Below, piece by piece: positions 42,399 to 58,674 of a stretch of 64,000 bases of DNA. Position numbers and translations under genes: made by a program. Every line of letters begins with the position of its first letter. Positions within the stretch are counted from its first letter, which is position 1. Source of the DNA: Tabrizicola flagellatus (GTDB lineage Bacteria; Pseudomonadota; Alphaproteobacteria; Rhodobacterales; Rhodobacteraceae); contig NZ_VMDU01000002.1 in assembly GCF_008271465.1 (NCBI RefSeq), positions 496,001 through 560,000 of the forward strand, in the 5' to 3' direction. The notes beneath the pieces were generated by a model. It was not told the DNA's origin. It worked only from the letters and a program-made list of their open reading frames with translations, and did no database searches.

Positions 42399-42499
42399 CG
42401 GTGGGTCCTCCCTCAATATCTCGGGCCAAGGGGTAACCCCTGCCTCTCCGCCCCGCCATTCGACCAAGGTGCAAGCCGACCCGCCCGCCCCTGCGACGA

Positions 42500-42507
42500 T
42501 GGTCGTA
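42500..42507 (+). promoter_or_regulatory. TGGTCGTA site between pedF and the ABC operon
   Basis: The octamer lies 52 bp before the binding-protein ATG and about 100 bp before pedF. Extended form: ATGGTCGTATTGGCC (42499-42513). The same octamer is found upstream of the PQQ alcohol dehydrogenase, the cytochrome c gene and the SGNH-like gene, suggesting a shared regulator. Confidence 0.6.
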
Positions 42508-42559
42508 TTGGCCTCGGCCCCCCTCTGCCGCAGGCTCCCGGGACTGGAGGGAGGGCTCC

Positions 42560-43729
42560 ATGTTCCGCCTGTTCGTCACCATCGCCAGCCTGGCGGTCAC
42601 CGCCCCCGCGCGCGCAGACCTTCCGGTGGCGATCACCTATCTGCGGCTCGAGGTGGACCGCCCGCCTGTCCTGTCGAACCTCGACCCGGTGCCCGAGGAC
42701 CTGGGCATCGCCGGCGCCGAAATCGCGCTGGCCGACACCCGGACCACCGGCAGCTTCCTCGGCCACGATTACAGCCTCACGGTCGTCTCACTCCCCCCGG
42801 ACGGGGACTTCGCCGCCGCCGCCCGCGCGGCGCTGCAGACCTCGCGCCTGATCCTCCTTGATGCCGATCCCGCCGCGATCCTCTCGGTCGCCGACCTGCC
42901 CGAGGCCGCCTCGGCGCTTCTCTTCAACGTCTCGTCCGGCGCCGAAAGCCTCCGCTCCGCCGACTGCCGGGCGAACCTCCTCCACACCATACCCGAGGAC
43001 GCCGCCCGCACCGACGCGCTGATGCAGGTCCTGCAGCGCAAGCAGTGGCAGACGACCGTCCTCGTCACCGGCCCCAAACCCGCCGACCGCGCCTTTGCCG
43101 AGGCGCTGCGCCGCTCTGCCGCCAAGTTCGGCATCGCCATCGCGGCCGAGAAGGAATGGACCTTCGACACCGACCTGCGCGACAGCACCATGGACGAGGT
43201 GCCGCGCTTCACCCAGGACTTCCCCGACCATGACGTGATCCTGGTGGCGGACGAAACCGACGACTTCGGCCGCTACATCGAACACAACGGCTGGCTGCCC
43301 CGCCCGGTGGCGGGATCGGACGGGCTGGTCCCCACCGCCTGGTCCCATGTCATCGAAAGCTGGGGGGCGGTCCAGTTGCAGAACCGCTTCGAGGCCCATG
43401 CCCGCCGCAACATGCGCGGCCCCGACTACGCCGCCTGGGCCGCCATCCGCGCCATTGGCGAGGCGGTGACGCGCACCAGCTCGAACGACCCCGCCACGCT
43501 GCGCGCCTGGCTCCTCGCCCCCGATTTCCAGATGGACGGCTTCAAGGGCCGCGGCCTGTCGTTCCGCGCCTGGAACGGCCAGCTTCGCCAGCCGATCGCC
43601 GTGGTCAACGCCCGCGCCCTTGTGACCCTCGCCCCGGTCGAGGGCTTCCTGCACCAGCGCAACGAGATGGACACGCTGGGCCTCGACCAACCCGAATCCG
43701 CCTGCACCGCCTTCACGGAGAGCCCATGA
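42560..43729 (+). CDS. Periplasmic binding protein of PQQ-linked ABC transporter
   Basis: 389-aa exported protein with a type I solute-binding fold (branched-chain amino acid receptor-like), of the kind encoded with PQQ-dependent catabolism genes. Signal peptide about 1-19 (FVTIASLAVTAPARA). Core segments are VAITYLRLEVDRP, CRANLLHTIPEDAARTDALMQ, TTVLVTGPKPADRAFAEALRR and DVILVADETDDFGRYIEHNGW. Acidic residues are frequent in the likely cleft. It is first in a five-gene operon and overlaps the beta-propeller gene by four bases. Ligand unknown; lanthanide-chelate or PQQ are candidates from context. Confidence 0.85.
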   Translation: MFRLFVTIASLAVTAPARADLPVAITYLRLEVDRPPVLSNLDPVPEDLGIAGAEIALADTRTTGSFLGHDYSLTVVSLPPDGDFAAAARAALQTSRLILLDADPAAILSVADLPEAASALLFNVSSGAESLRSADCRANLLHTIPEDAARTDALMQVLQRKQWQTTVLVTGPKPADRAFAEALRRSAAKFGIAIAAEKEWTFDTDLRDSTMDEVPRFTQDFPDHDVILVADETDDFGRYIEHNGWLPRPVAGSDGLVPTAWSHVIESWGAVQLQNRFEAHARRNMRGPDYAAWAAIRAIGEAVTRTSSNDPATLRAWLLAPDFQMDGFKGRGLSFRAWNGQLRQPIAVVNARALVTLAPVEGFLHQRNEMDTLGLDQPESACTAFTESP

Positions 43730-44751
43730 CCCGCACACCGCCTCGGCGCACCGCGCCTCCCCTCCCCCGCGTGGGGAGGGGATGGGGGAGGGGGGCCGCC
43801 CCCCTTGCCGCGACGCTCGCCCTCGTCCTTGCGACACCGGCACGCACGGATGAAATCTGGGTGACGAACGAGAAGGACGACACGATCAGCGTGATCGACA
43901 CCGCGACCCTGGAAGTCACCCGCACCATCCCCACCGGCGAACGCCCGCGCGGCATCACCTTTTCCAAGGACTTCTCCCGCGTCTACATCTGCGCCTCCGA
44001 CAGCGACACCGTGCAGGTGATGGACCCGGCCACCGGCGAGATCCTGCACGACCTGCCCTCGGGCGAAGACCCCGAGCAATTCGTCCTCCACCCCGACGAC
44101 CGCCACCTCTGGATCGCCAACGAGGACGACGCCGTGACCACCGTGGTCGATGTGGAAAGCCGCAAGGTCGTGGCCCAGATCAACGTCGGGATCGAGCCCG
44201 AGGGCATGGGCGTCTCGCGCGACGGCTCCATCGTGGTGACGACCTCGGAAACCACGAACATGGCGCACTGGATCGACACGGCGACGCACCAGATCATCGC
44301 CAACACCCTGGTGGACAGCCGCCCCCGCCACGCAGAATTCACCGAGACCGAGCTTTGGGTCTCCTCGGAAATCGGCGGCACCGTCACCGTGTTCGACATC
44401 GCCACCAAGGCCGAGAAGGCCAAGATCCGCTTCGCGCTGCCGGGCGTGAACCAGGACCTGATCCAGCCCGTCGGCTTCGAGTTCACCCCCGATCTCACCA
44501 CCGCCTTCGTCGCGCTCGGCCCCTCGAACCACGTCGCCGTGGTGAACATGCAGACCTATGAGGTCGAGACCTACATCCTCGTCGGCCGCCGCGTCTGGCA
44601 TCTGGCCTTCAACCGCGACCACTCGCAGCTGTTCACCACCAACGGTGTCTCGGGCGATGTCACCGTGATCGACGTGGCCTCGCGCACCGCGCTCAAGTCC
44701 ATCAAGGTCGGCCGCTTCCCCTGGGGCGCCGCCTTCCGCCCCACGGAGTAA
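43726..44751 (+). CDS. Exported YVTN beta-propeller protein, PQQ-associated
   Basis: 341-aa periplasmic beta-propeller made of about seven repeats of the type IWVTNEKDDTISVIDTATLEV, as in the PQQ-dependent catabolism beta-propeller family. The start is fixed by the ATGA overlap with the previous gene. Its signal peptide has an unusual n-region, RTAPPLPRVGRGWGRG, encoded by palindromic repeat R2, before the hydrophobic AATLALVLATPARTD. Function unknown; it may carry a metal or cofactor, or help mature the dehydrogenase. Confidence 0.85.
   Translation: MTRTPPRRTAPPLPRVGRGWGRGAAPLAATLALVLATPARTDEIWVTNEKDDTISVIDTATLEVTRTIPTGERPRGITFSKDFSRVYICASDSDTVQVMDPATGEILHDLPSGEDPEQFVLHPDDRHLWIANEDDAVTTVVDVESRKVVAQINVGIEPEGMGVSRDGSIVVTTSETTNMAHWIDTATHQIIANTLVDSRPRHAEFTETELWVSSEIGGTVTVFDIATKAEKAKIRFALPGVNQDLIQPVGFEFTPDLTTAFVALGPSNHVAVVNMQTYEVETYILVGRRVWHLAFNRDHSQLFTTNGVSGDVTVIDVASRTALKSIKVGRFPWGAAFRPTE
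43755..43798 (+). repeat. GC-rich palindromic repeat, copy R2, inside a coding region
   Basis: Core CGCCTCCCCTC-CCCCGCGTGGGGAGGGGATGG followed by GGGAGGGGGGCC. It lies about 30 bp after a start codon fixed by a stop/start overlap, so it is translated (PPLPRVGRGWGRG) between the basic start and hydrophobic core of the signal peptide. Confidence 0.85.
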
Positions 44752-44754
44752 CCG

Positions 44755-45228
44755 ATGATCCATCGCACCCGCATTCGCCCAACTACGCCTCCCCTCACCC
44801 CCGTGGGGAGGGGATTGGGGTGGGGGGCCGCAACGCTCGCCCTTCTCGCCATCCCAGCCGCAGCCCAGGACGCCCCCGCGGGCCTCTTCGCCGCCTCCAA
44901 CAAGCAGGACCTGCCCGAGATCGTCCTTTCGGCAGGCGAACCCCTCGGCGACCCCTGGGTCCTGAAATCCGGCACCTATTACGAGGTCGAGATCACCTCC
45001 GACGGGTCCCAGGAACTCGCCCTGTCCGGACCGGCCTTCTTTCGCGCGATCTGGATCGACGAGATCGTGATCGAGGGGATCGAGATCCGCCCTCTCGGCC
45101 TCGACAGCGTCGAATTCGACGAGGCCGGCACCCTGGAATTGGGCTTCATCGCCATCAGGCCCGGCAGCTACACCCTGCGCACCCCGCAGGGCGGCGAGAT
45201 CCAGACCTTGCAGATCACCATCGAATGA
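44755..45228 (+). CDS. Small acidic exported protein, cupredoxin-like without copper ligands
   Basis: 157-aa secreted protein. The n-region of its signal peptide (TTPPLTPVGRGLGWG) is encoded by repeat R3, followed by AATLALLAIPAAAQ. The mature domain of about 118 residues looks like an all-beta cupredoxin-type fold (LSGPAFFRAIWIDEIVIEG, then GSYTLRTPQGGE), but has no Cys, His or Met, so it cannot bind copper like a cupredoxin. It is rich in Asp/Glu. It sits between the propeller and ABC ATPase genes. A hard-metal carrier role is a hypothesis. Confidence 0.7.
   Translation: MIHRTRIRPTTPPLTPVGRGLGWGAATLALLAIPAAAQDAPAGLFAASNKQDLPEIVLSAGEPLGDPWVLKSGTYYEVEITSDGSQELALSGPAFFRAIWIDEIVIEGIEIRPLGLDSVEFDEAGTLELGFIAIRPGSYTLRTPQGGEIQTLQITIE
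44786..44830 (+). repeat. GC-rich palindromic repeat, copy R3, inside a coding region
   Basis: Core CGCCTCCCCTC-ACCCCCGTGGGGAGGGGATT followed by GGGGTGGGGGGCC, about 88 percent like R2 by eye. It encodes PPLTPVGRGLGWG in the n-region of the signal peptide of the small acidic protein. Confidence 0.85.
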
Positions 45229-45263
45229 CCGAAGCCCGTCCACAGCCGTTCCTCCCGACGCCT

Positions 45264-45337
45264 CCGGCATGGCGCCTCACCTCCCCCTCGTGGGGAGGGG
45301 ATGGGGGAGGGGGGCGCCTCCCCGAATGCCATGCCGG
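45264..45337. repeat. GC-rich palindromic repeat, copy R4
   Basis: Outer arms CCGGCATGGC (45264-45273) and GCCATGCCGG (45328-45337) enclose the shared core CTCCCCCTCGTGGGGAGGGG-ATGGGGGAGGGGGGC. It ends 12 bases before the ABC ATPase ATG, so its hairpin could affect translation start. A longer in-frame start would translate it as LPLVGRGWGRG. Confidence 0.85.
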
Positions 45338-45349
45338 GACGGCACCCCG

Positions 45350-46063
45350 ATGAGCCTGAAGGTCGAGAACCTCTCCTTCTCCTACGGCCCGCGCAAGGCG
45401 CTGGACGACCTGTCCTTTGCGCTCGCCCCCGGCAGCTTCACCGCTCTCCTCGGCCCGAACGGCGCCGGCAAATCCACCCTCTTCTCCCTCCTGACCCGCC
45501 TCTTCACCGCGCCGAAAGGGCAGATCACCATCGCCGGGCACGACCTCGGGCAGGCCCCCCTCAAGGCCCTTGCCGCGCTGGGCGTGGTCTTCCAGCAGCC
45601 GACGCTCGATCTCGACCTGACCACGCGCCGCAACCTCCTCTACTACGCCGCCCTCCACGGCCTCCGCGGCCCCGCCGCCCGCGGACTGGCCGACGAGGCC
45701 CTTGCGACCCTCTCGCTCACCGACCGGGCCGACACGCCCGCGCGCAACCTCTCGGGCGGACAACGCCGCCGCGTCGAACTCGCCCGCGCGCTGATCCACC
45801 GCCCCGCCGTCCTCCTCCTCGACGAACCCAGCGTCGGCCTCGACGCCGCCTCGCGCCGGGCCATCACCGACCATGCCCACCGGCTTGCCGACCGGGGCAC
45901 GACCGTCCTCTGGGCCACCCACCTGACCGACGAGGTCGGCCCCACCGACCGCTGCCTGATCCTGCACCGGGGCCGCCTCCTTGCCGACGCCCCCGCCGGG
46001 CAGATTGCCGAAGGCACCACCCTCACCGACCGCTTCCTGGCGCTCACGGCGGAAACCGCATGA
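45350..46063 (+). CDS. ABC transporter ATPase, PQQ-linked
   Basis: 237-aa ATP-binding subunit. Walker A GPNGAGKST at residues 35-43, Q-loop FQQP, signature LSGGQRRR at 134-141, Walker B LLLDEP at 155-160 and the H-loop ATH. The family resembles the ATPases of drug/Nod-factor exporters (ABC-2 type) found with PQQ-dependent catabolism genes. I use the ATG at 45350; an upstream in-frame start would add 27 residues encoded by repeat R4. It overlaps the permease gene by four bases. Confidence 0.92.
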   Translation: MSLKVENLSFSYGPRKALDDLSFALAPGSFTALLGPNGAGKSTLFSLLTRLFTAPKGQITIAGHDLGQAPLKALAALGVVFQQPTLDLDLTTRRNLLYYAALHGLRGPAARGLADEALATLSLTDRADTPARNLSGGQRRRVELARALIHRPAVLLLDEPSVGLDAASRRAITDHAHRLADRGTTVLWATHLTDEVGPTDRCLILHRGRLLADAPAGQIAEGTTLTDRFLALTAETA

Positions 46064-46932
46064 CCCCCGATCCCCTTCATCTGTCCCCAAATATCCCGCA
46101 GGGGGGTCCGGGGGGCGGCGCACGCCCCCCGGGGCCGGCCGCAGGGCGCTACCTCACCGCGCTCGGGGCCATCCTCCACCGCGAACTCGCCCGCTTCCTC
46201 GGCCAGAAAAGCCGGCTCGTCGCGGCGCTGGTGCGTCCCCTCGTCTGGCTTCTCGTCTTCGCCGCCGGCTTCCGCGCCGCCCTCGGCCTGTCGATCACAC
46301 CCCCCTACCAGACCTACATCACCTACGAGACCTACATCCTCCCCGGCCTTCTCGGGATGATCTGCCTCTTCAACGGCATGCAGTCCTCGCTCTCCCTCGT
46401 CTACGACCGCGAGATGGGATCCATGCGGCTTCTCCTCACCGCCCCCCTGCCGCGCGGCTGGCTCCTTTTCGCGAAACTCCTCGCGGGCACGCTCATCAGC
46501 CTCCTGCAATGCCTCGTCTTCCTCGGCATCGGCTATGCCTGGGGCATCCGCCCGCCCCTGGCGGGCCTCCTCGCCGTGATCCCCGCGCTGCTTCTCACCG
46601 GCCTGATGCTCGGCGCGCTCGGCCTCCTCCTCTCCTCGCTCATCCGGCAACTCGAGAACTTCGCCGGGGTGATGAACTTCGTCATCTTCCCGATGTTCTT
46701 CCTCTCCTCCGCCCTCTACCCGCTGTGGAAGATGGCCGAGGCGAGCCCCGCGCTCGCCCGCGCCTGCGCGCTGAACCCCTTCACCCAGGCGGTAGAGCTG
46801 ATCCGCTTCTCGCTCTACCTCACGCCCAACTGGCCCGCCCTCGGCTGGACCTGCCTCGCCACGGCGATCTTCGCCGCCGCCGCGCTGTATGGCTATGATC
46901 CCGCAAGGGGCTTCACGCGCGCCAAGGGCTGA
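46060..46932 (+). CDS. ABC-2 type permease, PQQ-linked
   Basis: 290-aa membrane protein with about six helices. It has YITYETYILPGLLGMICLFNGMQSS and LENFAGVMNFVIFPMFFLSSALYPLWKM, the latter being the ABC-2 signature region. The ATGA overlap with the ATPase fixes the start, so the first 30 residues (a Pro/Gly-rich tail) are encoded by a hairpin element at 46075-46131. ABC-2 permeases usually export, yet a binding protein is in the operon, so direction is open. It ends 71 bp before the convergent histidine kinase. Confidence 0.9.
   Translation: MTPDPLHLSPNIPQGGPGGGARPPGPAAGRYLTALGAILHRELARFLGQKSRLVAALVRPLVWLLVFAAGFRAALGLSITPPYQTYITYETYILPGLLGMICLFNGMQSSLSLVYDREMGSMRLLLTAPLPRGWLLFAKLLAGTLISLLQCLVFLGIGYAWGIRPPLAGLLAVIPALLLTGLMLGALGLLLSSLIRQLENFAGVMNFVIFPMFFLSSALYPLWKMAEASPALARACALNPFTQAVELIRFSLYLTPNWPALGWTCLATAIFAAAALYGYDPARGFTRAKG
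46075..46131 (+). repeat. ATATTTGG-type extragenic element within the permease start
   Basis: A segment CCCCAAATATCCCGCAGGGG followed by a hairpin with arms CCGGGGGGC and GCCCCCCGG lies just inside the permease gene, giving SPNIPQGGPGGG. The first part matches the intergenic segment at 53174-53205 (TTCCAAATACTCCCGCTGG), so it is a mobile or amplified extragenic element now translated. Confidence 0.65.
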
Positions 46933-46954
46933 CCGCGCGTCGTGCCCTTCGGTT

Positions 46955-46996
46955 CTCCTCGCTGACCCCGCGACGAGGCGCGAAGCGCACGAGGAG
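46955..46996. repeat. CTCCTCG/CGAGGAG intergenic repeat, copy C
   Basis: CTCCTCG at 46955-46961 and CGAGGAG at 46990-46996 form the ends of a hairpin with an inner GCGCGAAGCGC stretch. It fills the gap between the convergent permease and histidine kinase genes. It shares the outer stem but little of the tail with copies A and B. Confidence 0.6.
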
Positions 46997-47003
46997 CCGT
47001 CGC

Positions 47004-49199
47004 CTAGAGCCGCCCCACCACCGCCTCCAGCGCGCGGGGATCGATGGGCTTGTAGAGGATATCGATCCCCGCCGAGGTCGCCGCGGCGCGCACGTCCCAG
47101 CCCCGGTTCGCGGTGATCAGCCGCGCCGGCACCGTTCCATGCGCCGCCCGGACGCGGGTGACGAAGTCGATCCCCGTCATCCCCTCGCCCAGCTGGTGAT
47201 CGACCAGGAACAGGTCGGGCAGGATCCCGATCTCCTCGATCAGCGCAAGCGCCTCCTCGCCCGAGGCGGCCTCGAGCACCGTCATCCCCCATTTCTCCAG
47301 CAGAAGCCCCAGCGCCCGGCGCAGTTCCGCGTCGTTCTCGACCAGGAAGGCGATCTTGTCGGCCGCAACCGGCCCGCTGCGCCGCTCGGGCAGCTCGGCG
47401 GGGAGGGGCAAGGCCGCGCCGGCATCGCTCAGCGGCACCTGCACCAGGAAACAGGTGCCCCGCCCGACCTCCGAGCGCAGCCCGAGCGGATGGCCGAGAA
47501 GCGCGCAGGCGCGTTCCACGATCGCCAGGCCCAGCCCCATCCCCTCGCTGGCCGAGGCGCGGGCATTCAGGCGGTGGAACTCCTTGAAGATGTCGTCCTG
47601 CGCCTCTTCCGGGATGCCGGGGCCAGTGTCCCAGACCTCCAGCCGCACCCCCGCGCCCCGCCGCCGCGCACCCACCAGCACCCGGCCCTGCGCCGTGTAG
47701 CGGATCGCATTGCCGATCAGGTTCTGCAGGATCCGCCGCAGATAGGCCGGGTCGCTTTCCACCACCGCACCGCAGGGCACCACCCGCAGCCGCAGCCCCT
47801 TGGCCGCCGCCATCGGCGCGAACTCGTCAGCCAGCGTGCGCAGAAGCCGGTCCAGATGCACCGCCCCCACGCTGACCGCGGCCTTCCCCGATTCCAGCTT
47901 CGAGATGTCCAGAAGCGCGTCCAGGATCCCCTCGACCGACATCAGCGCGTTCTGCGCCTTCTCCAGCGCCACCTGAGCGCCCTTGTCCAACCCCTCGCCG
48001 GTGATGGAGCTGATGAACAGCTTCGCCGCCGACAGGGGTTGCAACAGGTCGTGGCTCGCCGCCGCCACGAACCGCGACCGGCTGGCATTGGCGCGCTCGG
48101 CATGGGCCAGCGCATCCTCCAGCTCCAGCGTCCGCTCCATCACCCGCGCTTCCAGCGTCTCGTTCGCGCGGCTCAAGGCCACCAGAGCCGCGCGTTCCGC
48201 GGTCACGTCGGTGAAACTGAACACGAAGCCCCCGTCCGGCATCCCTTGCGCGAAGACGTCAAGGATCAGGTCGTCCCCCCGCCGCACCTCGAACTCCAGC
48301 GGCGGCCGGACGCCCCCCGCCGCCACCCAGTCCATCAGGGCCTCGGCGCTGATGTCGTCCGACTGGGTCTCGGCCCGGAACCGGCTGAACAGGTTCTCGA
48401 ACGAGGCCCCGATCCGCAGCCGCCCCATGGGCAGCGACAGAAGCGCCCCGAGCCGCTGGTTCCAGCCCACCAGCCGCGCCTCGGCGTCGAAGATGCCGAC
48501 GCCCTGGTTGATGTGGTCCAGCGTCGCCCGGATCACACGCGCCTGGTCGTCCAGAAGCTTGCCGCGCTCGTGCCGTTCGGCGCGGATGATGTCGGTCACG
48601 TCGGTCTGCAGGATCACCGTGCCGCCGTCGGCCGTCCGGTGCTCGCTCACCTGCACCCAGTGGTCGCCCGTCATCCGCACGTTGAAGATCACATGCCGGT
48701 CCTTGTGCCGCCGCATCCGGCCCTGGGCCCAGTCCGGCGCGCCCTCGCCCTCGGGCAGGGCCAGATGGGGCGAGCGGCTGACCATCGCCACATAGTCCTG
48801 GAAGGCCAGCCCCGGCTTCAACTGCGCATGGACATCCGGCATGTGCATGGCAAAGCGGCTGTTGCACATCACCAGCCGGTCCTCGCGGTCGAACAGGGCA
48901 AAGCCCTCCTGCACCGTCTCGATCGCGTTCGACAGGTTCTGCCGCGCGGTCTCGGCCTCGCGCATCGCCTCGGCAAGGCGCGCGTTCGATTCGTTCAGCA
49001 GGTCCAGTGCCCGGCCCAGGTCATGTGTGCGTTCGCGGACCTGGTCCTCCAGCAGCGCCGCGCGCTGGAACTGGGCATAGGCCGCGCCGGAATCGTCCGT
49101 CGCCTGCTCTACCCGCCGCATCAGCGCCTCGGCGATGATCAAGAGCTTCTCGGCCCGCCGCTCGGCGCTGTCGGCCGGATTGATCAGCGTCTCGATCAT
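47004..49199 (-). CDS. Hybrid sensor histidine kinase with PAS domains and receiver
   Basis: 731-aa kinase with no membrane segment. An N-terminal coiled coil spans about 40-90. Two PAS domains follow (about 90-210 and 225-340), each with GFALFDREDRL- or GVGIFDAEARL-type starts. The phospho-acceptor His383 is in SHDLLQPLSAAK, then NLIGNAIRY (N box) and DTGPGIPEE (G1). A C-terminal receiver has Asp667 in LVDHQLGEG. The layout matches NahK/ErcS/FlhS-like sensors of alcohol and formaldehyde oxidation genes. It overlaps the FIST gene by four bases and follows the response regulator in the same run. Confidence 0.9.
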   Translation of the reverse strand: MIETLINPADSAERRAEKLLIIAEALMRRVEQATDDSGAAYAQFQRAALLEDQVRERTHDLGRALDLLNESNARLAEAMREAETARQNLSNAIETVQEGFALFDREDRLVMCNSRFAMHMPDVHAQLKPGLAFQDYVAMVSRSPHLALPEGEGAPDWAQGRMRRHKDRHVIFNVRMTGDHWVQVSEHRTADGGTVILQTDVTDIIRAERHERGKLLDDQARVIRATLDHINQGVGIFDAEARLVGWNQRLGALLSLPMGRLRIGASFENLFSRFRAETQSDDISAEALMDWVAAGGVRPPLEFEVRRGDDLILDVFAQGMPDGGFVFSFTDVTAERAALVALSRANETLEARVMERTLELEDALAHAERANASRSRFVAAASHDLLQPLSAAKLFISSITGEGLDKGAQVALEKAQNALMSVEGILDALLDISKLESGKAAVSVGAVHLDRLLRTLADEFAPMAAAKGLRLRVVPCGAVVESDPAYLRRILQNLIGNAIRYTAQGRVLVGARRRGAGVRLEVWDTGPGIPEEAQDDIFKEFHRLNARASASEGMGLGLAIVERACALLGHPLGLRSEVGRGTCFLVQVPLSDAGAALPLPAELPERRSGPVAADKIAFLVENDAELRRALGLLLEKWGMTVLEAASGEEALALIEEIGILPDLFLVDHQLGEGMTGIDFVTRVRAAHGTVPARLITANRGWDVRAAATSAGIDILYKPIDPRALEAVVGRL

Positions 49200-50359
49200 C
49201 CCGCGACCTTCGGCGGATAGATGGCGACCCCGGTCATGGTCTGGTTGACATGCATGGAATTCAGCTGCTCGCCATAGGTCGAAAAGCCCACCACCCCGTG
49301 CCGCTTCAACAGCGCCGAGACCGCCCCGAAGCGCTGTTTCTCCATCGCCTCGATCCGGCGCAGGATGCAGTCGCAGGCCAGGATCGCCGCCGGTCGTCCG
49401 CCCTCGGAGAGATCGCTCAGCGCCCTGTCCAGATGCACCGCCATGTCCTGCGGTTCGGCGAGCGTCAGCACCAACCCCTCGTCGATGGCCGAGAAGAAGA
49501 CCAGATCCCCGTTCGGCGCCATCTGCTGGATCGCCCGGACATGGTGACTGCCGCCGATCCTCACGACGACCGGATGGGCGGCGAAGGTGAAGGTGGTCAG
49601 CTGGCCCGGGTCCTTGCCCAGAAGCCGCGCATATTCCTGCGCGGCGGGTTCGGCGTTGATCTGGTGGACGACGCGACGGGCAGGGTCCGCCCCGGTCACC
49701 ACCATTCGCCGGTTGGTGGGGGTCAGGTGGTTTAGGCTGAAGACCTTCACCTTGCAGGCGGTGCGCACCAGCATCAGCACCGCCCAGCCCTGCCGGAACT
49801 GCCCGTCCTGCAGGACGAAGGTTTCCTCGAACCGCGTTCCGTCCCCGGCCGAGCCGCCGAACAGCGGCACCGGCCCCAGACCCGGCCCCAGGGCCGCCGT
49901 CAGCTCGTCCTCGCGGATCGACAGCCCGTCCACCAGCACGAAGGCGAACTCGTCCTCCCAGCCCGGATGCAGCCGCGCCAGCCCCGCCCGCGCGCGGATC
50001 AGCCGCCCGATCAGCTCCTGACCGTCCAGCACGCCAAGGTCGATCCCGAGGCAGTCCACCGCGAAGGTGGAGCGGGGCAGGGCGACCGCGACGATCTCGC
50101 CCTCCGAATATCCCTCGGGCGAGATTTCGCCCGCCGTGGTGCAGCCGATGACCGTGACACCCGGAAAGGCCCCCGGCAACCCCGCTTCCAGCGCGGCGCG
50201 GTCGGCCTCGGGCGAGACGAACAGGATCACCGCCGCGAATGGCCCCGGTCCCAGGTCGCGCGCCAGCCTGGCCAGGGCCTCCGGATCCCGCGCCCCGGCA
50301 TGAGCGCGCGGCATCACCATGACGGCTTCGGCAGGAGCCAAGTTCTCGGGCGCGATCAT
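49196..50359 (-). CDS. FIST signal-transduction sensor protein
   Basis: 387-aa soluble protein with FIST_N (about 20-220) and FIST_C (about 225-370) domains. FIST domains are proposed small-ligand sensors linked to two-component systems. Conserved pieces are VIGCTTAGEISPEGYSEG, LFGGSAGDGTRFEET and GFSTYGEQLNSMHVNQTMTG. The ATG at 50359 is chosen; the longer frame adds 12 unlikely residues. It overlaps the kinase start (ATGA), so it probably gives the kinase a ligand signal, perhaps an alcohol, aldehyde or metal. Confidence 0.88.
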   Translation of the reverse strand: MIAPENLAPAEAVMVMPRAHAGARDPEALARLARDLGPGPFAAVILFVSPEADRAALEAGLPGAFPGVTVIGCTTAGEISPEGYSEGEIVAVALPRSTFAVDCLGIDLGVLDGQELIGRLIRARAGLARLHPGWEDEFAFVLVDGLSIREDELTAALGPGLGPVPLFGGSAGDGTRFEETFVLQDGQFRQGWAVLMLVRTACKVKVFSLNHLTPTNRRMVVTGADPARRVVHQINAEPAAQEYARLLGKDPGQLTTFTFAAHPVVVRIGGSHHVRAIQQMAPNGDLVFFSAIDEGLVLTLAEPQDMAVHLDRALSDLSEGGRPAAILACDCILRRIEAMEKQRFGAVSALLKRHGVVGFSTYGEQLNSMHVNQTMTGVAIYPPKVAG

Positions 50360-50426
50360 CTGGTCCTTCTCCCCGGGGATGATGCTACGGCGCACCCTCC
50401 GATCAGGGCAAGGGATTCGGGCGGTC

Positions 50427-51116
50427 TCAACCGTCCTCGGGCATCAGGCTCGAGAAATTCGTCTCGCGCGCGATCAGCACCGCCTGTGTCCGGCTCTGGA
50501 CGCCAAGCTTGCGCATGATCGCCGTGACATGGGCCTTGACCGTGGTCTCGGCGATGGACAGCTCGTAGGCGATCTGCTTGTTCAGCAGCCCCTCGCAGAT
50601 CAGCTGCAGGATCTTCGCCTGCTGCCGGGTCAAAAGCGACAGCCGCCCGATCGCCTCTTCCTTCGCCGTGCCCTTGGCCTTGCCCTCCGGCACCGGCTCA
50701 TAGCCCTCCGGCAGGAACCGCTTGCCCTCCCGCAGCGCGTCGAACGCCGCGCGGAACACCTCGCGGCGCGAGTGTTTCGGCACGAACCCAGCCGCCCCCG
50801 CGGCCAGGCAGGCCCCGATCACCCGGTTGTCGGCCAGCGAAGATACCACCAGCACCGGCACTTCCCCCGCCGCCTGCCGCAGCCGGATCAGCCCGTCGAT
50901 CCCGTTCACGTCCGGCAGGTTCAGGTCCAGCACGATGGCATCCGGCGCCGGATTCAGGTCGATCCGGTGGATCGCCGTCTCCAGCCGGTCCGCCGTCTCG
51001 ATCTCCTCGATCCCGGCCACCGATTTCAGCGTCATCGACAGGGCATCGCAGAACAGCGGGTGGTCGTCCACGATGAGGGCCGAGTGCATCGGGCGGGTAT
51101 CAGCCTGCGGAACCAT
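50427..51116 (-). CDS. LuxR/NarL-type response regulator (ErbR/FlhR-like)
   Basis: 229-aa regulator. The receiver domain has an acidic pair at Asp17/18 (IVDDHP), phospho-acceptor Asp64 (IVLDLNLPD) and a Lys in GFVPKHSRR. The C-terminal LuxR helix-turn-helix is at about 160-215 (LLTRQQAKILQLICEGLLNKQIAYEL). The start is set at ATG 51116, preceded by GGAAGG at nine bases. Relatives (AgmR/ExaE/ErbR in Pseudomonas, FlhR in Paracoccus) activate PQQ alcohol and formaldehyde oxidation genes, so it is the best candidate for the TGGTCGTA sites in this locus. Confidence 0.9.
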   Translation of the reverse strand: MVPQADTRPMHSALIVDDHPLFCDALSMTLKSVAGIEEIETADRLETAIHRIDLNPAPDAIVLDLNLPDVNGIDGLIRLRQAAGEVPVLVVSSLADNRVIGACLAAGAAGFVPKHSRREVFRAAFDALREGKRFLPEGYEPVPEGKAKGTAKEEAIGRLSLLTRQQAKILQLICEGLLNKQIAYELSIAETTVKAHVTAIMRKLGVQSRTQAVLIARETNFSSLMPEDG

Positions 51117-51208
51117 GATATTCAGCCTTCCGGGTTGGTCCATGTCCAACTCTAACCCGCCCCGTCCCGGCCCGATACAGGCCAAAAGTCCTATGATCCG
51201 AAAGCACA

Positions 51209-51264: not shown

Positions 51265-53028
51265 TCAGTTCGCCATCGCCAGTTCCTTCGGCAGCTTGAA
51301 CACCCAGACCATGCCGCCCTGGTTCAGGTAGTTGACCTTGCTCGCGACCTCGCCGCCCCACAGCGGCACCGCCCCGCCCCAGCCGGAGACGACCGCGACA
51401 TACTGCTCGCCGTCCATCTCCCAGGTGACGGGCTGGCCCACGATCCCCGATCCGGTCTGGAAGCTCCACAGCTCCTCGCCGGTCTCGTCGTCCAGCGCCT
51501 TGAACTCGCCTTCCGGCGTGCCGAAGAACACGAGGCCCCCGGCCGTGGTCATGACGCCGCCCCAGAGCGGCGCGGGGTTCTTGTATTCCCACTTCCATTC
51601 GCCGGTCATCGGGTCGATGGCCTTCAGGCTGCCGATGTGGTCCTCGTAATTCGGCTTGATGGTAAAGCCCGCGCCCAGATAGGCCGCGCCCTTCTTGTAG
51701 GTGATCGGCTCGTTCCAGATGTCCATGCCCCATTCGTTCGAGGGCACATAGAACAGCCCCGTCTTCTGGCTGTAGGCCATCGGCATCCAGTTCTTGCCGC
51801 CCAGGAAGGACGGCGAGGCGAAGATCACCTCGCCCTTGGCGCCATCGGCCGCCGCGGCCGGGTTCCCGGGACGGTTCTCCTCGACATAGATCGGCCGGCC
51901 GTTCTCGTCGATGCCCTTGGCCCAGGTGATGTCCTTCACGAAGGGCCAGGCGTTGAGGAACTTCCCGTCCTCGCGGTTCAGCACATAGAAGAACCCGTTG
52001 CGGTCGGCGGTGGCGAACTTCTTCTTGCCGTCCCTGTCGGTGAAGGCCACGACCTCGTTCACCCCGTCATAGTCCCAGCCCTCGCGCGGGGTGGTCTGGA
52101 AATGCCACTTGATCTCGCCCGTCGCCGGGTCCAGCCCCAGCCGCGAGGCGGCATAGAGGTTGTCCCCCGTCCCGTCGTTCTTGTCGCCCGCATTGCGCAG
52201 CCAGCTGTTCCAGGGGGCGGGGTTGCCCGCGCCGAAGACCAGCGTGTTGGTCTCGATGTCATAGGACCCGCCCAGCCAGGTCGCCCCGCCGCCGGTCTTC
52301 CACATGTCGCCGGGCCAGCTGGCATTCAGCGTCCCGGTCATGGTGCTTTCCTTGCCCATGTAGGTGCCCATGTGGCCCTCGATGGTGGGGCGCGTCCAGA
52401 CCAGCTCGCCCGTCTCGGCATCGCGCGCCTGCACTTCGCCCACGATCCCGAACTCGCCGCCCGAGTTGCCGGTGATGACCAGCCCGTTCACGATCAGCGG
52501 CGCCGCGGTATAGCTGTAGCCCTCCTTGTAGTCGGCGATCTTCTTGTTCCAGACCACGTCGCCCGTCTTGGCGTTCAGCGCCACGATCCGCGCATCCAGC
52601 GTGCCGAAATAGATCTTGTCGCCATACAGCGCCGCGCCCCGGTTGATCACGTCGCAGCAGGGCAGGATGCCCTCGGGCAGGCGGGCGTCGAACTGCCACA
52701 GCTCCTTCCCGGTCTTGACGTCGATCGCGTAAAGCCGGCTGTAGGACCCGGTGATGTACATCACCCCGTCGTGGATCAGCGGCTGCGTCTCCTGACCGCG
52801 CTGCTTCTCGCCACCCAGCGAGAAGGCCCAGACCGGGACCATCTTGCCCACGTTCTCCTTGTTGATCGTCGCCAGCGGGCTGAACCGCTGCAGGTCGCGC
52901 CCCATCCCGTTGGTCAGCACGTCCCCGGTCGAGGCGGCATCCCCCGCCAGGTCCTCTTCGGTGATCCCCGCATAAGCCGGGGCAGCAAGCATCAGGGCCG
53001 CCGAAACGGCAGCGACAAAGCGGTTCAT
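51265..53028 (-). CDS. Lanthanide-type PQQ-dependent alcohol dehydrogenase (PedH/ExaF-like)
   Basis: 587-aa periplasmic quinoprotein with a signal peptide (about 1-20) and an eight-bladed beta-propeller. The Cys124-Cys125 disulfide ring (ILPCCDV) stacks on PQQ. Metal-site residues are Glu192 (SGGEFG), Asn269 (GAGNPAP), catalytic Asp319 and, two residues on, Asp321 in GWDYDGVNE. That extra Asp marks lanthanide-using enzymes (XoxF, PedH); calcium enzymes have Ala or Ser there. The N-terminal half ([26 protein letters not shown]) is ethanol dehydrogenase-like. It oxidises primary alcohols to aldehydes. The ATG is at 53028; the TGGTCGTA site is 111 bp upstream. Confidence 0.95.
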
Positions 53029-53138
53029 CAGGATCCCTCCCTCGGGTTTCAGACGACTGGACGGCGCGCCGGTCCCTCCCCCGGGGCCCCTGTCACCGGT
53101 CACTTTGCGTCCCAAACCGCGCCGCCGGTATTGGCCAA

Positions 53139-53146
53139 TGGTCGTA
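53139..53146 (+). promoter_or_regulatory. TGGTCGTA site upstream of the PQQ alcohol dehydrogenase
   Basis: The octamer (context CCAATGGTCGTAAGCCCC) lies 111 bp before the dehydrogenase ATG, reading TACGACCA on the gene's own strand. The sequence beside it, ATTGGCCA, is itself found next to the site at 42.5 kb. Confidence 0.6.
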
Positions 53147-53173
53147 AGCCCCCGCGCGCCCCCCGGCCTTCTG

Positions 53174-53205: not shown

Positions 53206-53303
53206 ACGGCATTGCCCTGCCACCCGGTCCAGCGGCCATGCCGCACGGAGGAGGAGGCGAAGGCCGACGACGACAGGAAAGGCTTGCGCCGCAGGCGCGC
53301 CGC

Positions 53304-53714
53304 TCAGCGGCCGGTGGTCCTCAGATAGGCCAGGATGAAGTCCTGCACCGTCGGATCCTCGATGCCCACATGCCGCATCTTGGTGCCTGGGACGAGCCCG
53401 TCGTTGTCCTCCATCCAGGCCCGCAGGGCGCCGGGGGTCCAGACGAAGCCCGCGCCCTTCAGTGCCGGGGAATAGGGATAGCCCTCCATGCTGCCGGCCT
53501 TCCGTCCGACCACGCCCTCCAGGACGGGGCCATAGCTCGGGTCGCTGGCATCGGTCGCATGGCAGCGGCGGCAACTGGCCTCGAACAGCGCCTTGCCCGC
53601 GTCGATCTTGATCTTCTCGAACGCCCCCGGCTCGTCGGCGCGCAAGGGCGTCGCAAGCGGAAGCACGGACAGGACCAGCGCCAGCGCGGCAAAGGGGCGA
53701 AGGATCGGTTGCAT
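53304..53714 (-). CDS. Periplasmic class I cytochrome c
   Basis: 136-aa c-type cytochrome. Signal peptide about 1-26 ([19 protein letters not shown]). Haem-binding CRRCH is at residues 48-52, Met113 (GTKMRHVG) is the likely sixth ligand, and [13 protein letters not shown] closes the fold. Cytochrome c2/c556-like length. It lies just upstream of the PQQ dehydrogenase on the same strand, so it is probably the dehydrogenase's electron acceptor (ExaB-like) or a link to the terminal oxidase. Its promoter has a Crp/Fnr-type dyad and two TGGTCGTA motifs. Confidence 0.88.
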
Positions 53715-53773
53715 CGCGGTCTCCTTGGCTGATGGAACCTGCCCAACTTGCGCCCGCCCGCGCCCCGCGCTGT

Positions 53774-53787
53774 TTGACCTGCGTCAA
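53774..53787. promoter_or_regulatory. Crp/Fnr-type box upstream of cytochrome c
   Basis: TTGACCTGCGTCAA is a perfect TTGAC-N4-GTCAA dyad, the classic Fnr/FnrL/NnrR-like target. It ends 60 bp before the cytochrome c ATG, a sensible distance for an activator at about -41. It suggests oxygen or nitric oxide control of this cytochrome. Confidence 0.7.
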
Positions 53788-53802
53788 GCGAACCGGCCCG
53801 AA

Positions 53803-53833
53803 TGGTCGTAGAAACCCCGGCCTCATGGTCGTA
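53803..53833 (+). promoter_or_regulatory. Pair of TGGTCGTA sites upstream of cytochrome c
   Basis: Two copies in direct orientation, at 53803-53810 and 53826-53833, 23 bp apart (about two helical turns). Each is followed by a CCCCGG-type stretch. They sit 16 bp beyond the Fnr-type box with respect to the cytochrome gene. Confidence 0.65.
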
Positions 53834-53968
53834 GTCCGCCCCGGACTCCGGTCCTTGCCGCCGGGCTGCTTCGCGCTTAGTCATCCGCAACCGCCCCGCG
53901 ATACCCGGAACGCCTTGTCGCCGCGCATCGTTACCAAGGGCAGATGACGCCCAAGTTCCAGGACCGCG

Positions 53969-54748: not shown

Positions 54749-54864
54749 CCCGGAAGGATCGGCTGGGTCCTGGCAGGAGCCGGCCGGGGCAGGGCTGTTT
54801 CAGGTGGTTAACGCCCGGTTACCTTCCACGGGCAAGCCCATGATCGAAAAGCGAAATCCGAAAA

Positions 54865-54879
54865 TGTCCACCGTGGACA
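54865..54879. repeat. Palindrome TGTCCACCGTGGACA
   Basis: A 15-bp perfect dyad sits one base beyond the pqqE stop, in the gap between the convergent CPBP and pqqE genes. The identical 15-mer is at 152-166, and its core is at 22227-22239. Confidence 0.6.
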
Positions 54880-54880
54880 C

Positions 54881-55990
54881 TCAGCCTCCGATTCGCCGCC
54901 ACCGCGCCGCGTCGAGGCCCGGCGCGTTCCCTTCCGCCGCCAGAAGCTCGTCAAGCCTCGCCCGCCCCGGCGTCCGCCGGCAGACCGGATCGGGGGCCGA
55001 GGCATCGCCGAGGACAGCCAGCGCCTGGCAGCGGCAGCCCCCGAAATCGACCTCGCGCCGGTCGCAGGACCGGCAGGGCTCGGGCATCCACTCCGTCCCC
55101 CGAAACGCCGCGAAGGCCGGGCCGCGATACCAGATCTCGTCCAGCGGGGTCTCCCTGACGTTGGCGAAGACCATCCCCGGGATCGTCTGCGCCGCGTGGC
55201 AGGGCAGGACGGCGCCGTCCGGGGCCACGTTCAGCCCGGTCGAGCCCCAGCCCCCCATGCAGGCCTTGGGCAGGTCGGCGTAGTAATCCGGCGGCACGAA
55301 GTCGATCACCAGCCGCCCCGCGCGGTCCCGGCGGGCCGCCCCGACCAGCTGCTTGGCCTCCTCGACCTGCTCGAGCGTCGGCTGCAACACGGCCCGGTTC
55401 GCCAGTGCCCAGCCCTGGAACTGGACGCAGGCCACCTCCACCCGTCGCGCGCCCAGCCGTTCGGCCAGATCGAAGACCTCGGGCAGCTCCGCCAGATTGT
55501 GCCGGTGCATCACCGCGTTCAGGGTCAGCGCGAGACCGGCCGCCGCCAGCGCCTCCGCCACCTCCATCTTGCGGGCAAAGCCGCCCCGGTAGCCGCCCAC
55601 CCGGTCCGCCGTCTCGGCCCGCGTGCCCTGAACGGACAGCTGGACATGATCCACCCCCGCCGCGACCAGCGCCGCGATCCGGTCGGCGGTCAACCCGATG
55701 CCAGAGGTGATGAGGTTGGCATAAAGCCCCGCCCCCCGCGCCGCGGCGACGATCTCTTCCAGATCCCGGCGCGAGGCGGGCTCGCCGCCCGACAGGTGCA
55801 CCTGCAACACCCCCAGCGCCGCCGCCTGCCGGAAGACCTCGGCCCAGTCCGCGACCGAAAGCTCGGCCTCGCGCCGGGTCAGCTCCAGCGGGTTCGAGCA
55901 ATAGGGGCAGGAGAGCGGGCAGCGATGCGTCAGCTCGGCCAGAAGCGCGATGGGCGGCGGGACGGCGGTGGGGCGGGCTCCGTCAGGCAT
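54881..55990 (-). CDS. pqqE: PQQ biosynthesis radical SAM enzyme PqqE
   Basis: 369-aa radical-SAM/SPASM enzyme joining Glu and Tyr side chains of PqqA, the first step of PQQ synthesis. The SAM cluster CPLSCPYC has Cys at 24, 28 and 31. The C-terminal SPASM cysteines include [11 protein letters not shown] and [16 protein letters not shown]. The start overlaps the pqqD end by eight bases. It is the last gene of pqqA-B-C-D-E. Confidence 0.97.
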
Positions 55991-56246
55991 GAAGGTCCAC
56001 CAGCCGCTCGCGGGCGAGACCTTCCAGGAACTCGGTCACGTCCGGGCCGACCTCTTCCGCCGGCGCGTCGAAGGCGGCGGCGAGGTCCGCGACCAGCGCC
56101 GCGACCGCCGTCGCCCCGTCCACCCGGGACAGGATCGCATGGCCCACCGCGTCCAGCATCAGCACCCGCTCGGGGGCGAGCAGCACATGCGTCCCGCGCA
56201 CCGCGTCCCAGTGCAGCCGTACGCCGGGGGGCAGGGCGGGCGTCAC
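55983..56246 (-). CDS. pqqD: PQQ biosynthesis peptide chaperone PqqD
   Basis: 87-aa RiPP recognition element that binds PqqA and hands it to Pqq[33 protein letters not shown] followed by [12 protein letters not shown] is typical. The GTG start at 56246 overlaps the pqqC stop (GTGA). It is a stand-alone protein, not fused to PqqC as in some methylotrophs. Confidence 0.94.
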
Positions 56247-56986
56247 CGCAGCCCCTCGCCCGGCCGCCAGGCGCCGGGGGGGATGTTCCCCGGTTCGACA
56301 TAGCCGTGCCAGAGCGCATCGAGCTGTGCCCAGAGCACATCGGTCTTGAAGGTCAGCGCCGCAGCCGCCGCGTCCTGGTCCTCGGGCGTGCGGGCGTGGT
56401 CGAGAACCCATTGCAGCCCGAAGGCCACATCCTTCGGCGCCTCGGTCAGGCGATGCCGGAAATAGGCCATCGTCTCGGGCGTGGCGAAATCGTAGTGCTC
56501 CAGCAGCCCCGCGATCCGTTCGGCATGGATCCTCGGCGCGAAAAGCTCGGTCAGCGAAGAGGCCACTGCCTGCAAGAGCGGCCTTTCGCGGACATAGGCC
56601 ACATAGGCATCCACCGCAAAGCGCGTCGCCGGCATGACGCCTGCGCCCGAGGCCACATAGTCGGGGTCGAGCCCCACCGCCTCGGCCAGCCTGAGCCAGC
56701 GCCGGATGCCGCCCTCGCGGCCCTCGGCGCCGTCGTGGTCCTCGATCCGGCTCCGCCAGGCGCGGCGGAGATCGGGATCCTCGACCCGGCTCATGAAGGC
56801 CGCGTCCTTCATCGGGATCCGGCTCTGGTAATACCAGCGGTTGACCACCCAGGCGCGGACCTGGTCCACCGTCGCCCCGCCCCCGTGCAGAAGGCGGTGA
56901 AAGGGGTGGCGGTCGTGATAACGCTCGTCCCCGATCCGGCGCAGCCGCGCCTCGAAGTCGCTTGTCGGTTTCGTCATCTCGGTCAT
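56243..56986 (-). CDS. pqqC: Pyrroloquinoline-quinone synthase PqqC
   Basis: 247-aa cofactorless oxidase for the final ring closure and eight-electron oxidation to PQQ. Conserved pieces are [35 protein letters not shown] and [16 protein letters not shown], carrying the active-site His, Tyr and Arg residues of the family. Overlaps pqqB and pqqD by four bases each. Confidence 0.97.
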
Positions 56987-57867
56987 GCCGCTATCTCCAT
57001 CCCGTCAAGGGCGATGTCCCATCCCGCCGCAGTCACCGCCGCGCGCTCCGGACTGCCGGGGCGCAGGATGGGATTGGTGTTGTTGATGTGGATCAGGATC
57101 TTGCGCCCGACCCGGCGTCCCGAAAGGCGCTCGAGCGTGCCGCCCGCCCCCCCGATCGCCACATGGCCCATGCGCGCGCCGGTCTTGGCGCCGACGCCTT
57201 CGCGGATCATCTCGTCGTCGTGGAAAACGGTGCCGTCGAAGAACAGCACGTCTGCCCCCTCGATCCGGTCCAGCAGCCAGTCGGGCAGACTGGCGCAGCC
57301 GGGAATGTAAAGGACACGCTTGCCGCCGCCCGTGATTTCGAGCCCGACGGTCTGCCCGCCCATGCGATGGTCGGCGCCCTGTTCGGCCTCGAGGAACAGC
57401 GCCACCTTGCCGGGCACGGCAAAGGGCGTGACGGTCAGGCCGGGGATGGGATTGAAGCCCTCGTCCAGCGTCATGTCCCGACGCAGCACCACCTCGGACA
57501 GAACGCCGAACACCGGGCTTGCCGCCAGCACGGCATGGGTCTCGGCGCTGGCCCAGAGATCGAAGCCCGTGCCCTCGCGCAGGGACAAAAGTCCGGCGAT
57601 GTGATCGACGTCGGCATTGGTGACCACCACCCCCTTGACCGGGCTGCCCCGCAGCCCCTGCGGCGCAAAGCGCGGCGCCGCCAGCTGGGCGCGGATGTCG
57701 GGCGAGGCGTTCAGCACCACCCATCCGGTGCCGTCCAATGAAACGGCCACGGACGATTGCGTCATCCGTGGCAGGTCACCCGCGCGGGCCAGGGAGCAAT
57801 TCCGGCAGGCACAGTTCCATTGCGGCACCCCGCCGCCCGCAGCGGCGCCGAGTACCGTCAGGATCAT
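56983..57867 (-). CDS. pqqB: PQQ biosynthesis protein PqqB
   Basis: 294-aa metallo-beta-lactamase-fold protein, an iron-dependent hydroxylase acting on the Glu-Tyr intermediate. It opens with [20 protein letters not shown] (structural Zn ligands Cys19, 21, 24) and has the metal loop [11 protein letters not shown] and later HINNTNPIL. The start lies 12 bp after the pqqA stop. Overlaps pqqC by four bases. Confidence 0.97.
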
Positions 57868-57879
57868 GGCATGTTCCGA

Positions 57880-57972
57880 TCAGACCAGGGTGCGGTCGTC
57901 CTCGGCGGGGCCGTACATGTTGATTTCCATGCCGCAGCGCACTTCCACGGCCTTGGGTTTCGTCCAGCGCAT
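57880..57972 (-). CDS. pqqA: PQQ precursor peptide PqqA
   Basis: 30-aa peptide from which PQQ is made. It has the essential Glu-x3-Tyr pair in GMEINMYGPAED, with the conserved start MRWTKPKAVEVRCG. A GGAGGAGG ribosome site stands before the ATG. It heads the pqqABCDE run. A degenerate TGGTCGTA-like site lies about 52 bp upstream. No pqqF or pqqG peptidase gene is present here. Confidence 0.96.
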   Translation of the reverse strand: MRWTKPKAVEVRCGMEINMYGPAEDDRTLV

Positions 57973-58024
57973 CTTGGGTCCTCCTCCATCTGATGCCGGT
58001 GAGTAAGCCATGATTCCGCCCCGG

Positions 58025-58039
58025 GGCCTATGCGACCTT
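58025..58039 (-). promoter_or_regulatory. Degenerate TGGTCGTA-type site upstream of pqqA
   Basis: AAGGTCGCATAGGCC on the minus strand agrees at 12 of 15 positions with ATGGTCGTATTGGCC found before the ABC operon. It lies 52 bp before pqqA. Proposed as a weaker member of the same site family. Confidence 0.4.
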
Positions 58040-58048
58040 CGGAGGGGG

Positions 58049-58588
58049 TCAGTAGAGACGTTTCTCGTATTTCCAGTCGTCCGCGTCGGGGGTGACCTCG
58101 TCGAGGTCATAGCCCGCCGCCTGCAGCCTTTGCGCCACCGGCAGACCCGCCGCCGCCGCCCGGTCAACCAGCGCGCGCCCCGCGGCCTGGTCCTGCGCGA
58201 CGCCGCGCCCGCGCATCAGGTCCAGCCCGTAGTTGAACTGGCCAACCGGATCTCCCGCCTCGGCGGCCATCCGGTCCCAGTTCGCGGCGCGGGCCGGGTC
58301 CTCGTCGGGCGCGCCGAGGCCGTTGTCGTCGAGCTGCGCGATCCAGGTCATCGCCCCGGTCCAGCCATCGCGCGCGCAGGCCTCGAACACGTCGCGCGCA
58401 TGGTCGTGGTCGCCCTTCTTGGTGATCCCGTAGCCGGCGGCGCAATGCATCATGCTGGTCTCGCCCCGGGCGACATCGTCGAGGATGCGGGCGATGGTCA
58501 TCTCCTCGGGGTTGAGGACGCCGATGTCCTCCTCCGGCTCGGCCAGGGCGGGCAGGGCAGACAGGAACAGGATCAGGATCGCGCGCAT
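58049..58588 (-). CDS. Exported Sel1-repeat protein
   Basis: 179-aa periplasmic protein with a signal peptide (MRAILILFLSALPALAEP) and Sel1-like alpha/alpha repeats, seen in AANWDRMAAEAGDPVGQFNYGLDLMRGRGVAQD and AGRALVDRAAAAGLPVAQRL. One Cys pair (MMHCAAGYG, EACARDG) may form a disulfide. Sel1 proteins are interaction scaffolds. It precedes pqqA on the same strand by 76 bp, and its start faces the palindromic site at 58659. Confidence 0.78.
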   Translation of the reverse strand: MRAILILFLSALPALAEPEEDIGVLNPEEMTIARILDDVARGETSMMHCAAGYGITKKGDHDHARDVFEACARDGWTGAMTWIAQLDDNGLGAPDEDPARAANWDRMAAEAGDPVGQFNYGLDLMRGRGVAQDQAAGRALVDRAAAAGLPVAQRLQAAGYDLDEVTPDADDWKYEKRLY

Positions 58589-58658
58589 GAGTCTCCGGCG
58601 GGCCGCTGGCGGTGTGCGGCAACCTTACCGGGTGCGGGGCGGCGGTCCAAACGTCCTG

Positions 58659-58674
58659 TGGTCGTATACGACCA
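58659..58674. promoter_or_regulatory. Perfect 16-bp operator TGGTCGTATACGACCA
   Basis: A perfect dyad made of TGGTCGTA and its complement. It lies midway in the 177-bp region between two divergent genes, 70 bp from the Sel1 gene and 91 bp from the SGNH-like gene. The half-site recurs upstream of other PQQ-locus genes, which makes this the clearest copy of a likely shared operator. Confidence 0.75.

Follow-up and report, generated by a model that had tools for sequence, protein, structure and literature searches.

The stretch of DNA considered here, called the window, comprises 64,000 nucleotides of Tabrizicola flagellatus (Alphaproteobacteria, Rhodobacteraceae; assembly GCF_008271465.1, contig NZ_VMDU01000002.1, positions 496,001 to 560,000 of the forward strand). 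It carries a locus for the oxidation of alcohols with pyrroloquinoline quinone (PQQ), i.e., a PQQ alcohol dehydrogenase (ADH), cytochromes, genes of a PQQ-linked ATP-binding cassette (ABC) system, pqqA and, in the middle of the locus (47004–51116), three genes for a LuxR-type response regulator (RR), a FIST-domain protein and a hybrid histidine kinase (HK) (Table 1). Several of these genes are preceded by an octamer, which reads TACGACCA when oriented towards them. In the original prediction, made for the interval 42499–58674, the octamer was proposed to be the operator of a PQQ/alcohol oxidation regulon. The element, its position, its conservation, the genes that it precedes and its co-occurrence with the RR have now been established by computation: the octamer is the strong half of a longer element, and this element is very probably the operator of the two-component system encoded in its midst.

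The ADH of the window scores well above the cut-off of the model PQQ_enz_alc_DH (TIGR03075; 779 bits, cut-off 480). In lanthanide alcohol dehydrogenases of the PedH type, there is a second aspartate two residues after the catalytic aspartate; it is present in the ADH of the window, as can be seen by comparison with structure 6zcw, which we take to be PedH. Just to the left of the interval of the original prediction, and adjoining pedF and sbp3, lies a coxGSL operon (37312–40746). The two divergent genes at the right-hand end had been named a Sel1/SGNH-like pair; the Sel1 match is below threshold in Pfam, and the SGNH-like gene belongs to no Pfam or NCBIfam family and has no tblastn match (E<=1e-6) in 80 related loci.

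Table 1. Features of the locus, with positions in the window (PWM, position weight matrix score)
Feature	Position	Strand	Remarks
Full 20-bp ADH operator TACGACCATTGGCCAATACC	53127..53146	-	begins 118 bp before ATG; PWM 34.2, best in window
Position of -10-like box of ADH promoter, CAAAGT	53102..53107	-	+39 to +44 from operator start; RATAMT of relatives stronger
Cytochrome c operator half-site, proximal copy	53803..53810	-	octamer match
Cytochrome c operator half-site, distal copy	53826..53833	-	23 bp from proximal copy
FNR/Nnr-like inverted repeat TTGACCTGCGTCAA	53774..53787	.	between operator and cytochrome c start
Palindrome, two half-sites back to back	58659..58674	.	(-) half towards Sel1-like, (+) half towards SGNH-like gene
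pedF operator TACGACCATCGTCGCA	42492..42507	-	perhaps of pedF-sbp3-coxGSL; second arm 5/6
Inexact operator of ABC operon TTCGACCAAGGTGCAAGCCG	42459..42478	+	PWM 10.9, second in window
Degenerate operator TACGACTTAGGCAGCATAGC	40794..40813	-	67 bp before coxG
Possible degraded pqqA operator	58027..58046	-	right half only; weak
LuxR-type response regulator (RR), proposed binder	50427..51116	-	
FIST-domain protein, NosP-like	49196..50359	-	below NCBIfam cut-off
Hybrid histidine kinase (HK), NahK/ErcS'-like	47004..49199	-	below NCBIfam cut-off
PQQ alcohol dehydrogenase (ADH)	51265..53028	-	GWDYDG, cf. GWDFDG of 6zcw
Cytochrome c	53304..53714	-	
pedF (cytochrome c-550)	41727..42398	-	
Solute-binding protein (SBP_bac_3; sbp3)	40817..41725	-	
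coxG-like	40225..40746	-	79% to L072
coxS-like iron-sulphur subunit	39700..40185	-	91% to L072
coxL-like molybdenum hydroxylase large subunit	37312..39690	-	91% to L072
ABC substrate-binding protein of PQQ system	42560..43729	+	TIGR03863
PQQ-associated beta-propeller protein	43726..44751	+	TIGR03866
ABC ATPase of PQQ system	45269..46063	+	TIGR03864
Sel1-like gene	58049..58588	-	Pfam match sub-threshold
Gene originally named SGNH-like	58757..59656	+	no Pfam/NCBIfam family
pqqA	57880..57972	-	

In the form TGGTCGTA, the octamer is found six times in the interval, at 42500, 53139, 53803, 53826 and 58659 (+) and at 58667 (-), with the coordinates originally given; the last two copies form the perfect palindrome TGGTCGTATACGACCA, of which there is no other exact copy in the genome. 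Dinucleotide shuffles of the interval led to an expectation of 0.38 octamers, with a maximum of two in 100 shuffles. The whole genome holds 62 octamers in 3,616,516 bases, i.e., one per 58 kb on both strands together, and not one per 33 kb per strand as had been supposed. At the rate found outside the locus, 0.25 copies would be expected in its 16,176 bp (P for five or more, 7e-6), and the locus is thus enriched about twentyfold; the distribution is uneven and favours the locus, as predicted. The six copies in the locus are all intergenic, as against 5 of the 56 elsewhere; this was judged with a crude gene finder that scores coding potential and had learned from 17 genes of the window.

Conservation in relatives likewise bears out the prediction. 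It was followed by searching genome contigs with the ADH of the window, from which the best 80 loci were taken and 78 were usable (L110 and L152 have too little upstream DNA). In the 250 bp before ADH, TACGACCA is the most frequent octamer, being present in 47 of the 78 loci, on the coding strand and 95–159 bp from the start; in 100 sets of first-order Markov shuffles of the same DNA, the maximum for any octamer was 10 loci and the mean for TACGACCA was 0.17. Most loci without the exact octamer (26 of 31) have a one-letter variant of it as their best matrix site, 90–138 bp before the start. The matrix score on the coding strand exceeds 8.7, the top score among 1,560 shuffled regions, in 66 of the 78 promoters; the matrix itself was built from 47 of the 78. 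In a search of the family, 26 of 30 ADH loci scored above 8.7, a set that takes in the locus of the window and shares some of its genomes with the 80-locus set.

A 54-bp model of the ADH promoter, built from sequence only, has one significant match in the genome of T. flagellatus, which is the ADH promoter itself (E 3.5e-7; the next match has E 2.5). Across 198 genomes of the family, using filters that drop weak matches, the model matched 31 at E<=0.01: 27 of the 41 genomes with this ADH, each time just before it, versus 4 of the 157 without such an ADH match. This test is not fully independent, because some of the genomes also gave training loci (G098 and the genome of L165, for example, have the RR at an identical place). 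The model or matrix matches in L293, L294 and L295, from family genomes that do not have this ADH, stand beside none of the genes known from the locus. The only genome of the same genus in the draw, G191, matches neither ADH (E<=1e-200) nor RR (E<=1e-30); thus, the locus is patchy in its occurrence. At L324, there is an ADH (80%) without the operator.

The original prediction equated the operator with the octamer. The element is real and is longer than that: the octamer is the strong half of a unit of about 20 bp, which for ADH is TACGACCAWTGTNCAATACC, and the second half is weaker. The aligned ADH sites read TACGACCA-W-T-G-T-N-CAAT-A/T-C/T-C, followed by 19 free bases and then a RATAMT box at +39 to +44 from the start of the operator. 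If this box is taken as the -10 element, the operator spans about -51 to -35. At target genes other than ADH, the octamer is accompanied by a G at position 10 (G10) in 53 of 63 sites (20 expected), the second halves being their own; in five of six pedF sites, positions 10–12 are GTC. Among the 56 octamers elsewhere in the genome of T. flagellatus, G10 is found in 14 and the second arm in none. The cytochrome c promoters of L149 and L150 have the symmetric form TACGACCAAAGTCGTA, which makes it likely that the operator is a dyad.

The exact octamer recurs within 300 bp upstream of other genes in the related loci: cytochrome c (27/35), Sel1 (25/53), abcB (9/53), pedF (8/61) and pqqB (4/18). In the coding DNA of these loci, there are just eight octamers in 710,055 bases, a base total that includes rows (at least 45%) of the query 'abcP', which are unreliable because its translation was out of frame (9 stops). 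In G003, a more distant genome of the family, an exact operator (matrix score 29) lies 227 bp before pqqB. The site at 42500 had been assigned to both the ABC operon and pedF; it is directed towards pedF, and abcB has a weaker operator of its own. Likewise, the variant described before pqqA is no more than a right half (AAGGTCGCATAGG, 58027–58039, minus strand), which points weakly to an operator there. The exact octamer was found within 300 bp of neither the FIST nor the HK gene in any of 52 loci each and in only 1 of 53 RR promoters, and the RR promoter of the window has a weak matrix match (1.2) at 51193; autoregulation is not indicated.

The 23-bp spacing of the tandem cytochrome c octamers is found again in L086. 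The cytochrome c promoter of the window also contains an FNR/Nnr-like box, TTGAYNNNNRTCAA, between operator and start, and so do those of 27 of 35 relatives (L090–L169; shuffle mean 0.02), as compared with ADH (0/80), Sel1 (1/54), pedF (0/61) and abcB (0/55). This box probably represents a second input, responsive to oxygen or nitric oxide (NO).

The regulon is probably wider than was originally thought, in that it takes in coxGSL. Of 20 stretches around an RR gene, 14 have coxG-coxS-coxL beside it and not this ADH; the other six have the ADH, two of these together with coxG. In 23 of 24 relatives, a matrix trained on ADH promoters alone places the best site 64–74 bp upstream of coxG; in the remaining one, L076, it lies at -137. 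The octamer is exact in nine of the 24 and the score exceeds 8.7 in 13; as scores range from -19.6 to 27.9, the remaining sites are degenerate. As to the function of the enzyme, the coxL of L072 (91% identical to that of the window) is below the cut-offs both of the carbon monoxide (CO) dehydrogenase large subunit (TIGR02416; 651 bits, cut-off 991) and of the glyceraldehyde dehydrogenase model (655 bits, cut-off 790).

The LuxR-type regulator of the locus had been named as the natural candidate to bind the octamer. Its best curated model is CrbR/ErdR (NF041830), at 155 bits and below the cut-off of 390, this being the only match of the model in the genome. The FIST protein similarly resembles NosP (NF041558; 381 bits, cut-off 450) and the HK resembles the NahK/ErcS family, near_NosP_CTERM (NF041832; 364 bits, cut-off 400). 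At an identity of at least 50%, the RR occurs in 68 of the 198 family genomes (one partial match included), among them all 41 with the ADH at E<=1e-200 (P about 1e-24, not corrected for ancestry). Where the ADH locus itself lacks an RR (27 loci), the genome has one at 60% identity or more elsewhere in 24 cases. In L106, L116, L120 and L315–L321 (the latter being seven ADH loci from six distant genomes of the class), the RR is absent or represented by a relative of 39–43% identity, and nine of these ten loci have a matrix score of 4.3 or less. Five further loci of the class, judged on local stretches only, have a local RR of 37–40% identity and scores of 2.3, -12.4, 2.0, -9.4 and 9.0; two RR-bearing genomes of the class-wide draw have operators scoring 22.0 and 29.8. 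The helix-turn-helix (HTH) segment of the RR, IAETTVKAHVTAIMRKLGV, is conserved to at least 95% at each position across 109 RR sequences. Because of the co-occurrence (41/41), the operator absence (9/10), the conserved HTH and a likeness to the motif of CrbR, the local RR is the best candidate for the predicted binder.

This last likeness concerns the ACTU motif, which at acs is the 17-bp imperfect inverted repeat TACTACCATCGTCGAAT at -52 to -36, which is needed for activation by CrbR (PMC5715377, as excerpted). It is identical to the ADH consensus in 13 of 17 letters and to the pedF site of the window in 14 of 17, and its place resembles that of the ADH operator, which here follows from the -10-like box and not from a mapped start. 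CrbR is likewise a LuxR-type response regulator; according to the same excerpts, it (also as ErdR) is found in Pseudomonas and other Gammaproteobacteria and controls acetate genes with an SLC5-type kinase as partner, whereas here the partners are a FIST protein and a hybrid kinase, and the targets PQQ alcohol genes. A third gene between regulator and kinase is also described, in the part of PMC4776306 consulted, for FlhR-orf2-FlhS of Paracoccus denitrificans and AfdR-T-S and RfdR-T-S of Rhodobacter sphaeroides, which control formaldehyde and C1 oxidation. The local set has the order regulator, FIST-type gene, kinase; the third gene of FlhRS and AfdRS is presumably of FIST type as well. The targets in these systems are formaldehyde genes (flhA, fghA, adhI), unlike the PQQ alcohol genes of the window. 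A third parallel is AgmR (ErbR, PedR1) of Pseudomonas putida, which, as far as the excerpts of PMC12997753 go, is an activator of both ped cluster and pqq operon, with PedS1 and PP_2663 as partners; there too, a response regulator, an NahK/ErcS'-like kinase and a NosP-like protein stand beside PQQ alcohol genes, but the regulation is layered (YiaY/PP_2683, PedS2/PedR2). In the open-licence literature searched, as far as its texts were available, no operator or binding site for FlhR, AfdR or AgmR was found. We judge the operator and its regulon to be new and the kind of system to be known.

Taking these observations together, we regard it as very likely that the octamer is a half-site of the operator of the RR-FIST-HK system and that the phosphorylated RR binds it and activates the regulon. 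The RR would most likely bind as a dimer at this operator, which lies just upstream of the -35 region, the beginnings of operator and -10-like box being 39 bp apart. Given this position next to the -35 region, the bound RR would most likely act as a class-II-type activator, recruiting RNA polymerase. In this way, it would switch on jointly ADH with its cytochromes, the ABC genes linked to PQQ, the Sel1-like gene and, probably, coxGSL. Activation is the direction we infer by analogy; the published relatives are split (CrbR and AgmR activate, while ErdR of Pseudomonas aeruginosa repressed most of the targets tested and RfdRS is believed to be repressive).

Alternatively, the operator could be bound by another LuxR-type regulator, for instance a paralogue resembling FlhR or a protein encoded elsewhere, with the local RR serving other targets. 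Regulators of the LuxR family have half-site types in common, and several genomes have a second RR-FIST-HK set (about 39–47% identity; L348–L359), beside other PQQ-type genes in 9 of 12 stretches. However, just two of these 12 stretches have the octamer in exact form or reach a matrix score above 8, three paralogous relatives of the RR differ in the HTH, only one RR match at E<=1e-30 exists in the genome of T. flagellatus, and RR loci without the PQQ cluster keep the operator before coxG; another binder is therefore unlikely. That the octamer might instead belong to the core promoter recognised by an alternative sigma factor, as could be suggested by the near constancy of its position and strand upstream of several genes, is highly improbable, since at ADH it starts 39 bp before the -10-like box, a distance too great for a -35 element, and elsewhere there are tandem and palindromic copies and copies on either strand. 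The clustering by chance of a common word (51 of the 62 genomic copies fall within predicted genes) can be dismissed in view of the enrichment statistics and the conservation in other genera and families.

A number of observations weigh against binding and activation by the local RR through this operator. As regards the element itself, the ADH site is the only full operator in the window, and its -10 box (CAAAGT) is poor; among the six exact sites of the window, G10 is found only in those of ADH, pedF and Sel1, and is missing from the two sites of cytochrome c and from the one on the SGNH side. The symmetry of the second arm is weak, with at least four of six positions in 11 of 63 non-ADH sites (2.2 expected) and in 1 of 47 ADH sites. 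As regards conservation, a good coding-strand site is missing at 12 of the 78 ADH loci (two have one on the opposite strand), and 4 of the 30 family ADH loci score 8.7 or less (one with a good opposite-strand site), all four in genomes with the RR. Conversely, L106 has a fair site (14.6) in a genome in which no RR was found, and L337, with an RR of 37–40% identity, accounts for the score of 9.0. Moreover, the absence of the operator from RR-less genomes is confounded with ancestry, because these genomes are also more distant. The coxG sites score 8.7 or less in 11 of 24 relatives, and that of the window (-3.6) is no better than shuffles; thus, it rests on the position that it has in common with relatives. 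Finally, as regards direction, ErdR of Pseudomonas aeruginosa repressed most tested targets (PMC9927353, as excerpted), and a repressing role is also supposed for RfdRS (PMC4776306, in the part consulted).

The RR-FIST-HK regulator of PQQ alcohol oxidation is thereby given a testable operator, which allows regulons to be deduced from genome sequences and, with them, the connection to the coxGSL molybdenum hydroxylase. A broader reading, which is tentative and in our view somewhat short of an even chance, is that one two-component system with FIST input, possibly sensing NO or haem, drives the whole alcohol programme in the Rhodobacterales and a part of the Rhizobiales, from the lanthanide-type PQQ dehydrogenase and the cytochromes to the PQQ-linked transporter and coxGSL, an uncharacterised enzyme. 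If this were true, the shared operator would lead one to expect that coxGSL acts in this pathway as an aldehyde oxidase and not as a CO dehydrogenase, and the FlhR/AgmR group would have an operator whose sequence has shifted from TACGACCA in the present locus to TACTACCA in other classes. Among ADH promoters from other classes of the phylum, TACTACCAAG or a one-letter variant of it occurs in 8 of 17 loci, a count without a chance control (L326, L328, L330, L336, L338, L340, L344 and L345). Another word, AATTGTTG, was more frequent (12 of 29 loci); the TACTACCAAG words hint at a drifted form of the same operator.

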